From the NCBI RefSeq assembly GCF_036417355.1, contig NZ_CP143889.1, positions 930,001 to 994,000 on the forward strand: a stretch of 64,000 nucleotides of DNA, written 5' to 3'. Below the pieces are notes generated by a model, which had not been told where the DNA came from, did not search any database, and saw nothing but the letters and a program-made list of their open reading frames with translations. Position numbers and translations under genes: made by a program. Source of the stretch: Akkermansia sp. RCC_12PD (GTDB taxonomy: Bacteria; Verrucomicrobiota; Verrucomicrobiia; Verrucomicrobiales; Akkermansiaceae). Of the stretch, positions 15,630 to 20,376 are shown piece by piece; the stretch's first letter is position 1, and every line of letters begins with the position of its first letter.

Positions 15630-15819
15630 CGAATTTGAAATCCGAAGTCAATGAAATTTTTTGATACAAAATGTCTTAGAAAAGCTGAAAAGAGTGAAGA
15701 AGGAGCTGGAAAGACGGGGAGAAACTATATGAATAAATATTCAATAATATCACCATTAATGATTTATGTATTTTTCAAAATAATTTGAAAGCTTTTTCGG
15801 ATTTCAAATTCGTTTTGAT
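15630..15819 (+). promoter_or_regulatory. Putative invertible promoter switch B, upstream of PEP-CTERM gene 2
   Basis: A perfect 15-bp inverted repeat, CGAATTTGAAATCCG at 15630-15644 and its complement at 15798-15812, bounds a 153-bp AT-rich segment. One bp inside the left site, AGTCAA (15646-15651) reads TTGACT outward on the minus strand. One bp outside the right site is TTTGAT (15814-15819), 4 of 6 to the -10 consensus. Inversion would give TTGACT-N17-TTTGAT ending 6 bp before the ATG at 15826, implying an almost leaderless transcript. In the present orientation the -35 position reads GCTTTT (OFF). The inversion is inferred. Confidence 0.68.
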
Positions 15820-15825
15820 CCGGCC

Positions 15826-16620
15826 ATGCGCAAAAGTTTGGCGGCTGTATTTTTTTCCAGTGTCATGATGGGAACAGCATTACTGGCTTCAAACGCCGAT
15901 GCTTCCACCCTTCTTTACGGACTGGATTTCAACAATTTGAATGAGCAGAATTTAACCAACCTGGGGAGCGGAACAACCGCTATCAACGGAACAGCCGGGT
16001 ACATTAACTGGACCGGCGACAATGTTCCCCTCGGTGATGGAGGCTATGCCCACAGAGTGAACGGCGCAACATTCAATATCAGCAACAGTGGCGGCATTGA
16101 CGGCATCAACCTTTCCACCGGATTCAGCGTCGGCCTCCATCTGAAGAACGGCAACAATCCCGTCTGGCAGGATGCCCTTTCCATCACATTCGGTAACACA
16201 ACCATCAGGGTGGAAATGAATGCTTCCAACCAGTGGGTGATTTACAACGGTGCCGACATAGGTATTCCGCAAGGAACTCTTCTCTTCCAGACAGACCCCG
16301 GCAACTGGGATTACCTGGGTCTGACCTTCCAAGGCGACAAAATGAATGTGTACAAAAACGGCCAGTTGACCAATTCCATCACGACCGGCCTTTCAGATTC
16401 CACCCTCGTTACCGGCATCAGGGGAGGAGGCGAACATGCCGCTACTAATTCCCAGGTCTATATAGACAACGTGGCCGTTTATGACGGCGTGCTCAATGGC
16501 AACGATTTCGCCTACCTGAGCCAGAATGCCATGCCTGCCGAACTGGTTCCGGAACCGGCCACTGCTTCACTGAGCCTTCTCGGGCTGGCTTCCCTGCTTA
16601 TGCGCAGAAGAAGAAAGTAA
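15826..16620 (+). CDS. PEP-CTERM secreted protein 2 with LamG/concanavalin-like fold
   Basis: A 264-residue exported protein: signal peptide (to about residue 26, ending SNADA), then a beta-rich domain reminiscent of LamG/concanavalin A-like lectin modules (LYGLDFNN..., FSVGLHLKNG, WDYLGLTFQGDKMNVYKNG, VYIDNVAVYDGVLNG), then the V-P-E-P, hydrophobic and RRRRK tail. LamG-like domains often bind carbohydrate, but no ligand can be inferred. It is probably anchored at the surface by an exosortase system. The ATG lies only 13 bp after the right arm of switch B, leaving no room for a normal ribosome binding site if transcription starts at the predicted promoter. A terminator follows, so it is monocistronic. 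Its closest relative here is the gene at 48028. Confidence 0.88.
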   Translation: MRKSLAAVFFSSVMMGTALLASNADASTLLYGLDFNNLNEQNLTNLGSGTTAINGTAGYINWTGDNVPLGDGGYAHRVNGATFNISNSGGIDGINLSTGFSVGLHLKNGNNPVWQDALSITFGNTTIRVEMNASNQWVIYNGADIGIPQGTLLFQTDPGNWDYLGLTFQGDKMNVYKNGQLTNSITTGLSDSTLVTGIRGGGEHAATNSQVYIDNVAVYDGVLNGNDFAYLSQNAMPAELVPEPATASLSLLGLASLLMRRRRK

Positions 16621-16677: not shown

Positions 16678-16822
16678 TTCCGGGGAGCAAAACGCTCCCT
16701 GCCGAATATTCCGGCATGACTGAAATATCGGTATCCTCCCCGGAGCTTAAGGATATTTGTGGTTGATCATGCCCGTCAGGGCCTACAGAATGCGCGCCGA
16801 ACTTTTTCCGTCCACTTTTTTC

Positions 16823-17710
16823 ATGCCGCGCCGCCAAAAAACCCTTGGGCACATTGCCGCCCTGCTGACTATCCTGATCTGGGGCACAACCTTCGTCTCC
16901 ACCAAAGTGCTGCTGCGGGACTTTACGCCCGTTACGGTGCTCTTCACGCGCTTTGTCATCGGCTACGCCTTCCTCTGGTGCCTGAAACCACGCCTGATGC
17001 CTTTCTCCGGCTGGAAAAAGGAACTCCTGTTTGCCGGAGCCGGTTTAACGGGAGTCACTCTGTACTTCCTGCTGGAAAACATCGCCCTGACGTACACACT
17101 GGCTTCCAACGTGGGAATCATCGTGGCCGTGGTACCGTTCTTCACAGCTCTTCTGGCCCACTTCCTGATCAAGGGGGAACGGTTCACGCCGCGCTTTTTC
17201 CTGGGTTTTGTCGCCGCGTTCTCAGGCATCTTCCTCATCATGGCGAATGGAGCCTTCGTTCTGGAACTGAATCCGGCAGGCGACCTGCTGGCCCTGGGGG
17301 CGGCCCTTGTCTGGGCGGTTTATTCCATCCTGATGAAAAAAATCGGCGTCAATACGTCCAACATGGTAGCCTGCACGCGCCGCATTTTCTTCTACGGCAT
17401 CGTGATGATGGTGCCGGCCCTGTCTCTGCTGCCGGTGAACTTTGACTGGGATCTGTTCATCCGGCCCGTCAACGCCGCCAATCTGCTGTATCTGGGCTTC
17501 TTTGCCTCCGCCCTGTGTTTCCTGGCCTGGAGCCGGGTGGTGGAAGTGCTGGGAGCCGTCAAATCCAGCGTCTATATTTACATGGTCCCGGTTGTGGCCG
17601 TGATAGCCTCCGCTATCATCCTAGGAGAACGCCTGACATGGATTTCCGGAACGGGACTTCTTCTAACTATCTGCGGCGTAATGATTTCCGAATCCAAAAA
17701 GAAGAAGTGA
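16823..17710 (+). CDS. EamA/DMT-family transporter
   Basis: A 295-residue inner-membrane protein with about ten hydrophobic segments in two EamA repeats, typical of drug/metabolite exporters. The first repeat opens HIAALLTILIWGTTFVSTKVLL with the family's WG(T/S)(T/N)F motif; the second begins near GDLLALGAALVWAVYSILMKK. ATG 16823 (MPRRQKTLGH) is preferred, since an upstream ATG at 16757 adds a 22-residue extension unlike the family. Substrate unknown. The gene ends 11 bp before the left arm of switch C. Confidence 0.85.
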   Translation: MPRRQKTLGHIAALLTILIWGTTFVSTKVLLRDFTPVTVLFTRFVIGYAFLWCLKPRLMPFSGWKKELLFAGAGLTGVTLYFLLENIALTYTLASNVGIIVAVVPFFTALLAHFLIKGERFTPRFFLGFVAAFSGIFLIMANGAFVLELNPAGDLLALGAALVWAVYSILMKKIGVNTSNMVACTRRIFFYGIVMMVPALSLLPVNFDWDLFIRPVNAANLLYLGFFASALCFLAWSRVVEVLGAVKSSVYIYMVPVVAVIASAIILGERLTWISGTGLLLTICGVMISESKKKK

Positions 17711-17721
17711 ATTCCTGAAAG

Positions 17722-17895
17722 CGGTGTGCTAATCCGCTGTCAACGCAAAAATCTCACTGGAAGTCCATTGCTAGAAAAAATGATTCCAGAATGGATTGGA
17801 ATCTATTGTTTGCGGAAGATTTGAGTCTTTATATTTAGGAATCTTCTATCTTTCATCAGAGTTGACTCTCTTGCGGATTAGCACTCCGTTATAAT
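17722..17895 (+). promoter_or_regulatory. Putative invertible promoter switch C, upstream of the PEGA lipoprotein gene
   Basis: Inverted sites CGGTGTGCTAATCCG (17722-17736) and CGGATTAGCACTCCG (17874-17888) bound a 137-bp segment; they match at 14 of 15 positions plus one further bp inward. One bp inside the left site, TGTCAA (17738-17743) reads TTGACA outward on the minus strand. One bp outside the right site is TATAAT (17890-17895). Inversion would create TTGACA-N17-TATAAT, a full sigma-70 consensus promoter driving the lipoprotein gene. In the present orientation the -35 position is TCTCTT, and a nearby TTGACT (17862-17867) is 22 bp from TATAAT, so the promoter reads as OFF. This is the clearest of the four switches. 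Confidence 0.75.
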
Positions 17896-17924
17896 TTTTA
17901 AAGAAGAAATTAAAAAATATTTTT

Positions 17925-18335
17925 ATGAGCGCTCATGAAAATGGCCCTATTTGTATTTCACAATTATTTATGCATGTTCCAACTGCAGTACTAGCAATTT
18001 CATTATTTTTACTCTCTTCCTGCGGAACAATCATGCACGGAGGCACGCAAAAAATCGGCATATCAAGTACTCCTATAGGGGCAGATGTAACAGTTGATGG
18101 CAAACCGGAAGGCAAAACGCCAGTAATTGTCAAGATGGACAGAAACAGCAATCACACCATTCTTGTTGCAAAGAAAGGTTACCAGCCTGCTTCTGCCACA
18201 CTCACAAATTCAATTTCTGGATGGGTATGGGGAAATATTCTTTTTGGGGGTCTCCTAGGTTTAGCGGTGGACGCAATATCTGGAGGTTTATATACACTTG
18301 ATCCGGAGAATGTAAACCTCTCTCTTCATCAATAA
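17925..18335 (+). CDS. PEGA-domain lipoprotein
   Basis: A 136-residue protein from ATG 17925, or 121 residues from ATG 17970, which opens a cleaner lipoprotein signal (MHVPTAVLAISLFLLSSC, lipobox L-S-S-C). The upstream start is 29 bp downstream of the TATAAT, after a purine-rich AAAGAAGAAA. The mature part carries a PEGA-type repeat (ISSTPIGADVTVDGKPEGKTPV) and a glycine-rich hydrophobic segment (WGNILFGGLLGLAVDAISGG), a pattern seen in small surface lipoproteins. The function is unknown. It stands directly behind switch C, so a phase-variable surface lipoprotein is plausible. Composition is AT-rich compared with flanking genes. Confidence 0.78.
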   Translation: MSAHENGPICISQLFMHVPTAVLAISLFLLSSCGTIMHGGTQKIGISSTPIGADVTVDGKPEGKTPVIVKMDRNSNHTILVAKKGYQPASATLTNSISGWVWGNILFGGLLGLAVDAISGGLYTLDPENVNLSLHQ

Positions 18336-18396: not shown

Positions 18397-20376
18397 TTAT
18401 AACACGGTTTCCGCCTCAATGCGGGCTTCCGTCTCCTCAATCTCTTCAGAAAGTTCCGCCCATTGGGAAAAGCATGCTTCCAACTGGCGGTCGGCCTGCT
18501 GGAAACGCATGGTCAATTCCATCACGGCATCCGTGTCCGCCGCTGTTCCCGGCTGTTCCAGACGGGTCGTGATGTCCGTTTTTTCCGTTTCAAGACGGCT
18601 TATTTCCGCTTCCAGGCCTTCCAGTTTTTCCTGGAGGGGACGAAGCAGGCGCGTCTTTTTCTGGCGGATTTCCGCCTCCATGCGCCTGCGTGCCTTCCGG
18701 TCCCCCCCGCCGCCCTGCTCCGTTCCTCCGGCGGAGGCAGAACGCGCTGCAGCGCCCAAGGCCTGGTCACGCTCCACCTTTTCCAGATAATCGGATACGT
18801 TGCCTATGTACAGGCGCGGCTTTTCCCCCGGCACGAATTCCAGCACCTTGGTAACAATGGGGTCCAGAAAGCTGCGGTTGTGGGAAACAATGCAGTAGGA
18901 ACCCGGATACTCGGCCAGGGCTTTTTGAAGGACCTGCTGGGACTGAATGTCCAAATGGTTCGTAGGCTCGTCCAGGATCAGGAAATTGGCGGGATGCAGC
19001 AGCATGCAGACCAGGGCCACGCGGGACCGCTCCCCTCCGGACAACACTCCCACGCGTTTATGCACGTCGTCCCCCCGGAACAGGAAGCAACCCAGCAGAT
19101 TCCGCACCATGGGGGCGGATTCCCGCGTTGCAGCCGCTTCTACGCATTCCAGCACCGTCTTGTCCGGGTCCAGATCGTCGGCGTGGGTCTGGGAGAAAAA
19201 GGCGATCCGGGTATGGTGGCCCATTGTGACATGTCCCGCAGTCGGTTCCTCCCCGCAGGAAATAAGGCGGGAAAAAGTGGACTTGCCCGCTCCGTTCACG
19301 CCCACGATGGCGATGCGGTCGCCCTTGACGATTTCAAAGTCAAACTTGTCCAGAATGGAAATGGGGCCGTAATTTTTAGAGACCTTTTCCAGTTTGACGA
19401 CGGAATGGCCTCCCGCCGGGGGAGTAGGGAAGTGAAAGTCCATCACGGCGTCGTCTTCCTCCACCTCAATCAGTTCCACCTTTTCCAACTGCTTGATGCG
19501 GGACTGCACCAGGGAAGCCTTCGTGGCCTTGTAGCGGAAACGGTCGATGAATTCCTTCGTTTTGGCTATTTCCCGGTCCTGGGCCTTTTTCTGGCGCAGA
19601 AGGATTTCCTTCCTCTGTTCGCTTTCCTTCAGAAAGTAGGAGAAGTTTCCCGCATATTCCTCCGCACGCCCGTGATAAAAGGCGATCGTCCGGGAAACCA
19701 GGGAATCCAGCAGGGCCACGTCATGGGAAATGATCACGATGGCACCGCGGTAGGTGCGCAGATATTGTTCCATCCACCGCTGGGACTGGATATCCAAATG
19801 GTTGGTAGGCTCGTCCAGCAGCAGCACTTCCGGCCCGCGAAGAAGAAGCTTCGCCAGAGCAATGCGCATTTGCCAGCCGCCGGAGAATTCGCCGCAGTCC
19901 CGGTCGAAATCCCGGTCCTTGAATCCGAGGCCGCGCAGAATGGATTCCGTCCGCGGCCGGAGACGGGCGGTGTCATGGGCGTTCAGCACGAGTTCCAGCT
20001 CCCCGATTTCATTGAGCACTTCGGAATAGGCGGCTGAACGGGGGTCCAGCCCGGCCATGTCCTGCGTCAGCGCATCAATACGCTGCTGAATGTCCATCAG
20101 GTCCGCAAAAGCCGACATGGCTTCGTCAACCAGTTTGCGCCCCCGGACGTGAATGCCCTCCTGCGGCAAATAACCCACCTGGCAGTGTTTGGAATGAATG
20201 ATGGAACCGGAGTCCGGCTCATTGAGGCCGGCAATGCATTTCATCAGCGTGGACTTGCCCGCGCCGTTATGCCCCGCCAGGGCAATGCGCTCCCCGTCCT
20301 CAATCGTGAAGGAGAGATCGTTGAACAATACGCGCGCGCCATATTGCACGCGCAGATTTTGAACGGCCAGAACCAT
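18397..20376 (-). CDS. ABC-F family ATPase (Uup/YdiF-like)
   Basis: A 659-residue cytoplasmic protein with two ATP-binding cassettes and no membrane segment, hence the ABC-F translation-factor class. The first cassette has Walker A GHNGAGKST, signature FSGGW and Walker B LLLDEPTNHLD. After a charged linker (about residues 240-320) comes the second cassette with GVNGAGKST, LSGGERSRVAL and LILDEPTNHLD. A long Glu/Arg/Gln-rich C-terminal coiled coil (after about residue 530) is typical of Uup/YdiF-like members. Such proteins act at the ribosomal E site; a resistance role is possible but not shown. It lies downstream of the cyclophilin gene on the same strand, separated by 87 bp holding a hairpin. 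Confidence 0.93.
   Translation of the reverse strand: MVLAVQNLRVQYGARVLFNDLSFTIEDGERIALAGHNGAGKSTLMKCIAGLNEPDSGSIIHSKHCQVGYLPQEGIHVRGRKLVDEAMSAFADLMDIQQRIDALTQDMAGLDPRSAAYSEVLNEIGELELVLNAHDTARLRPRTESILRGLGFKDRDFDRDCGEFSGGWQMRIALAKLLLRGPEVLLLDEPTNHLDIQSQRWMEQYLRTYRGAIVIISHDVALLDSLVSRTIAFYHGRAEEYAGNFSYFLKESEQRKEILLRQKKAQDREIAKTKEFIDRFRYKATKASLVQSRIKQLEKVELIEVEEDDAVMDFHFPTPPAGGHSVVKLEKVSKNYGPISILDKFDFEIVKGDRIAIVGVNGAGKSTFSRLISCGEEPTAGHVTMGHHTRIAFFSQTHADDLDPDKTVLECVEAAATRESAPMVRNLLGCFLFRGDDVHKRVGVLSGGERSRVALVCMLLHPANFLILDEPTNHLDIQSQQVLQKALAEYPGSYCIVSHNRSFLDPIVTKVLEFVPGEKPRLYIGNVSDYLEKVERDQALGAAARSASAGGTEQGGGGDRKARRRMEAEIRQKKTRLLRPLQEKLEGLEAEISRLETEKTDITTRLEQPGTAADTDAVMELTMRFQQADRQLEACFSQWAELSEEIEETEARIEAETVL

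Follow-up and report, generated by a model that had tools for sequence, protein, structure and literature searches.

The question raised by this locus is whether a short inverted repeat in front of a gene for a PEGA-domain protein forms a promoter switch, the -35 hexamer being carried inside an invertible segment and the -10 hexamer standing outside it. The window, i.e., the whole stretch of DNA analysed, comprises 64,000 nucleotides (bases 930001–994000 of one 3.17-Mb contig of Akkermansia sp. RCC_12PD). The inverted repeat, here called switch C, is located at 17722–17737/17873–17888; its arms are 16 nt long, 15/16 complementary (94%), and separated by 135 nt. Features of the locus are listed in Table 1.

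Table 1 Features at and around switch C. Positions are those of the window; rc, reverse complement.
Feature	Position	Strand	Basis
EamA-family transporter, conserved upstream neighbour, not target	16757–17710	+	PF00892; synteny
Left recombination site (rc: CGGATTAGCACACCG)	17722–17736	-	Inverted repeat and family comparison
-35 hexamer TTGACA, 1 bp inside left arm, pointing away from PEGA gene at present	17738–17743	-	Sequence
Invertible segment, 135 bp, OFF at present	17738–17872	.	Inverted repeat and in-silico inversion
TTGACT inside right arm, 22 bp from TATAAT	17862–17867	+	Sequence
Right recombination site CGGATTAGCACTCCG	17874–17888	+	Inverted repeat and family comparison
-10 hexamer TATAAT, outside invertible segment, fixed	17890–17895	+	Sequence
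Cargo gene: 136-aa PEGA-domain protein, lipobox-like LSSC (putative lipoprotein)	17925–18335	+	PF08308, E 2.2e-9
ABC-F-type ATPase, conserved downstream neighbour	18397–20376	-	Profile match; synteny

The original prediction placed a TTGACA on the minus strand, facing out through the left site, and a TATAAT 1 bp beyond the right site, and both were found to the base where it had put them. Its central claim, that flipping creates a perfect TTGACA-N17-TATAAT promoter before the PEGA gene, was reproduced by in-silico inversion of 17738–17872, which yields TTGACA (17867–17872), spacer GCGGATTAGCACTCCGT (17 nt), and TATAAT (12/12 consensus positions), 29 bp before the ATG of the PEGA protein; the predicted flipped junction is TTGACAGCGGATTAGCACTCCGTTATAAT. 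The limits first proposed for the segment (17737–17873) give an identical product and need correction only in extent, to 17738–17872 plus the arms up to a crossover inside each. The 17-bp spacer of the flipped promoter is the right recombination site with 1 bp on either side. Also as predicted, no properly spaced -35 exists in the assembled orientation, where the best plus-strand promoter match is 8/12; switch C reads OFF because the sole -35-like box upstream, TTGACT, is 22 bp from TATAAT, which is too far. Ranked by the promoter formed on flipping, switch C comes first of the 37 invertons of this genome. Neither its ON nor its OFF junction had an exact match in viral contigs.

Switch C belongs to a family of sites, each arm of which is itself a dyad, CGGATT-NNN-AATCCG. 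The motif CGGATT..AATCCG is the published Akkermansia inverton motif, in the form in which Jiang et al. (2019) are quoted in PMC13343947. AATCCG-N118-148-CGGATT was found 30 times in the genome (reversed control, 0) and AATCCG-N149-179-CGGATT 41 times (reversed control, 1); not all of these spaced matches are true pairs, and at least 37 pairs were obtained when full arms were required. Pattern TTGACNNCGGATT occurs 28 times in this genome and 19–48 times in each of 13 related genomes, the reversed control giving 0 there. In 31/34 pairs, chosen blind to the centre, the central trinucleotide is identical in inverted reading, and the remaining three combine arms of two adjacent invertons; matching centres are the homology rule expected of a crossover site. 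Switch C has the structure of the family, two inverted CGGATTNNNAATCCG copies about 100–350 bp apart with the same centre: its arms are 14/15 alike, with identical centre, 152 bp start to start, and keep 10/12 and 11/12 fixed positions, which is less perfect than most members. Lengths of the invertons of this genome fall into two classes, about 140–200 bp and about 280–320 bp.

Across the 37 invertons of this genome (74 arms), a hexamer beginning with TTGAC ends 1 bp before the arm in 25 arms, any other offset being found at most once, and no pair has it in both arms (25 of 37 invertons). Since TTGAC keeps to one register, 1 bp inside the arm (1 + 15 + 1 = 17 bp), the recombination site forms the promoter spacer. 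TAnnnT at spacing 16–18 is found outside the opposite arm in 8/25 TTGAC-bearing invertons (about 2 expected), and outside the arm now bearing TTGAC in 2/25; most members in this genome with a recognisable -10 therefore read OFF. "TA" at the -10 position shows a mild excess on the inner sides of arms as well (21/134), so the -10 signal may belong partly to the recombinase site. The full ON form, TTGACNNCGGATTN10TANNNT, gave 38 matches in 18/76 genomes of the genus and none in the control. The pair corresponding to the cps1 capsule inverton of A. muciniphila was located in a related genome (G059), upstream of wza/wzz/cpsB-like genes, with TTGACA at the same register in one arm and a weak -10 on flipping. 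Three more invertons of the family are located in the window: 2966–2980/3131–3145 and 15630–15644/15798–15812, both with TTGAC in the arm away from the adjoining gene (OFF), and 47804–47818/47973–47987, with TTGTTG only.

Comparison of orthologous invertons between genomes revealed collinear flanks with an inverted middle in 17 pairs (about 13 loci, about 10 of them with good identity on both flanks); 36 pairs were collinear throughout. Between G061 (L147) and G057 (L196) the flanks are 99% identical, and the middle is 99% identical when reverse-complemented and 43% in direct reading. An inverton of this genome that is OFF before TATAAT (L088) matches its counterpart in G004 (L229) with a middle 94% identical when reverse-complemented, and the G004 copy is ON (TTGACT-N16-TATGAT). 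The inverted middle with unchanged flanks that the original prediction had proposed to look for in orthologous loci was thus found at about 10 other loci of the family; at switch C it was not, the two-armed orthologues being OFF in 5/5 cases. Inversion between genomes is shown by those other members, and for switch C itself we infer it. One locus of this genome (L079, G000:C1:481312-481908) consists of two tandem invertons with different centres; it aligns with a copy in G004 (L220) that is in the inverted state and has a differing left flank.

The window holds none of the nine tyrosine recombinase genes (PF00589) of the genome. Some of these site-specific recombinases are XerC- and XerD-like; the others form a set of about 350–450 aa. 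Candidates for the invertase are five paralogues (G000:C1 829033, 1278420, 1609759, 109249, and 2337665) and the XerC- and XerD-like genes. A serine recombinase was rejected as the invertase, no PF00239 match being found in the genome. An inverton lies right at the 5' end of three genes of the 350–450 aa set (L184, L185, and L182; G000:C1 829033, 1278420, and 1609759), and the invertases may therefore be phase-variable themselves. Relatives of one of these recombinases are present in 75/76 genomes, site-rich and site-poor alike, so that distribution does not single out the invertase. A XerD-like gene (L180, G000:C1:2755142) lies about 0.6 kb from an inverton of the 300-bp class (2754241–2754551).

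Relatives keep both neighbours, EamA and ABC-F, and an inverton alignable with switch C occupies the same gap in five species (G054, G047, G017, G049, and G057); the box inside its left arm reads TTGACT, TTGTCT, or TTGTTT, and the one beyond its right arm TAGTAT, TAGCAT, or TAATAT. In G047 the spacer would be 19, because one arm is two bases longer. The gene behind these orthologues encodes a PEP-CTERM protein (the G054 copy matches PF07589), its start codon 6–10 nt after the -10, and its mRNA is predicted to be leaderless. PEP-CTERM genes starting 6–10 nt past a predicted -10 were seen at several inverton loci (L012, L014–L016; window 15812–15826), which suggests leaderless inverton-controlled mRNAs. 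What is left in the two closest genomes, G037 and G004, is a single arm and a PEP-CTERM gene that has decayed or changed; G053 has lost all but one site by deletion. The PEGA gene was found in no other related genome (one genome per species compared); its G+C is 0.42 (window, 0.55), and its product has its best relatives (54–58% identical) in MAGs from other phyla, matches within the genus being distant only. As the inverton precedes a PEP-CTERM gene in five relatives, the cargo gene appears to have been replaced here, and horizontal transfer of the PEGA gene would be the simplest reading.

Inference from sequence gives good support to switch C as an invertible promoter for the PEGA gene. We give a probability of about 0.78 to the reading that it belongs to the Akkermansia inverton family and acts as a phase-variable promoter with -35 and -10 split across the crossover. 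A tyrosine recombinase encoded elsewhere would pair the two inverted CGGATT-NNN-AATCCG sites, and strand exchange at their central trinucleotide, which the two arms share, would flip the 135 bp. With the -35 set 1 bp in from one arm, the -10 fixed beyond the other, and the recombination site as 17-bp spacer, the assembled OFF form would direct the -35 away and leave the PEGA gene with a -10 only; inversion would give a consensus sigma-70-type promoter with a predicted transcription start near 17902, and the putative PEGA lipoprotein would presumably act at the cell surface. Because the -35 is in the invertible segment and the -10 in the fixed flank, each inversion would build or dismantle the promoter at the crossover. 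The wider proposition, a family-wide split promoter with the recombination site as 17-bp spacer, in a socket that stays put as one gene behind it gives way to another (PEP-CTERM to a horizontally acquired PEGA lipoprotein), is held with less assurance, as somewhat better than an even bet.

Switch C might instead be a relic, once an active inverton for the ancestral PEP-CTERM gene and now frozen OFF, with the PEGA gene silent or otherwise driven. The single orientation of switch C and its five two-armed orthologues (6/6 OFF; no flipped copy was seen), the imperfect arms of switch C, and the decayed copies in the nearest species are what such a history would leave, whereas hexamers of 12/12, better than in every orthologue, are unexpected for an unused promoter, and the central trinucleotide is still the same in both arms; we regard this explanation as improbable.

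Less probable again, and quite doubtful, is that TTGAC by the arm is an accessory or orientation mark for the recombinase and not a -35, transcription being controlled otherwise, e.g., by a read-through promoter from inside. Outside -10 matches are weak in many members, and an upstream-enrichment test gave the published Akkermansia promoter motif no more than lower confidence (PMC11892184), which would fit such a mark, but the TTGAC register provides a spacer of exactly 17 bp, the optimum, the full ON form is found 38 times against zero in the control, and both hexamers of switch C are perfect. That promoter-like hexamers fell beside an inverted repeat by mere coincidence, already thought hard to credit in the original prediction, has a negligible probability, and nothing was found in its favour: 300,000 trials of a local Markov-1 simulation gave 12/12 at spacing 16–18 in none and 11/12 in 2.7e-5 per arm, TTGAC keeps a single register family-wide, and an orthologous inverton exists in five species. 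Chance is excluded by the family evidence.

Invertible promoters such as fimS and those controlled by Mpi (a serine recombinase) or RecV have short inverted repeats, a site-specific recombinase, and an ON/OFF promoter, and the whole promoter is usually within the invertible segment. Switch C shares the short inverted repeats and the ON/OFF logic, but only its -35 is within the segment, and, in contrast to the Mpi system, no serine recombinase was detected in this genome. In circle-junction promoters of IS elements, recombination brings together a -35 from one end and a -10 from the other, as proposed for switch C; transposition circles are formed there, reversible inversion here. A literature search for a promoter split by a recombination site in invertible elements found none, which is a weak test, since wording may differ.

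Published Akkermansia invertons (PMC13343947, PMC11892184) have the inverted-repeat motif, size class, and intergenic position in common with switch C, which differs in having a PEGA protein as its target; PEP-CTERM genes are enriched downstream of inverton group 138 (PMC11892184). The cps1 inverton of A. muciniphila has the same site as switch C and drives a capsule operon, its flipping and the accompanying capsule phenotype having been followed experimentally, by restriction digest and qPCR (PMC13343947). Motif, size, and target class match those of published Akkermansia invertons, and switch C therefore belongs to a known kind.

For Akkermansia, the TTGAC-bearing arm gives the direction of about 25 of the 37 invertons, so that ON and OFF states would become predictable from assemblies or metagenomes, and what had been a guess at a single locus becomes a rule readable from sequence. 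The search for the invertase is narrowed to tyrosine recombinases. At switch C, the inverton appears to have been retained in place through a swap of its cargo gene.
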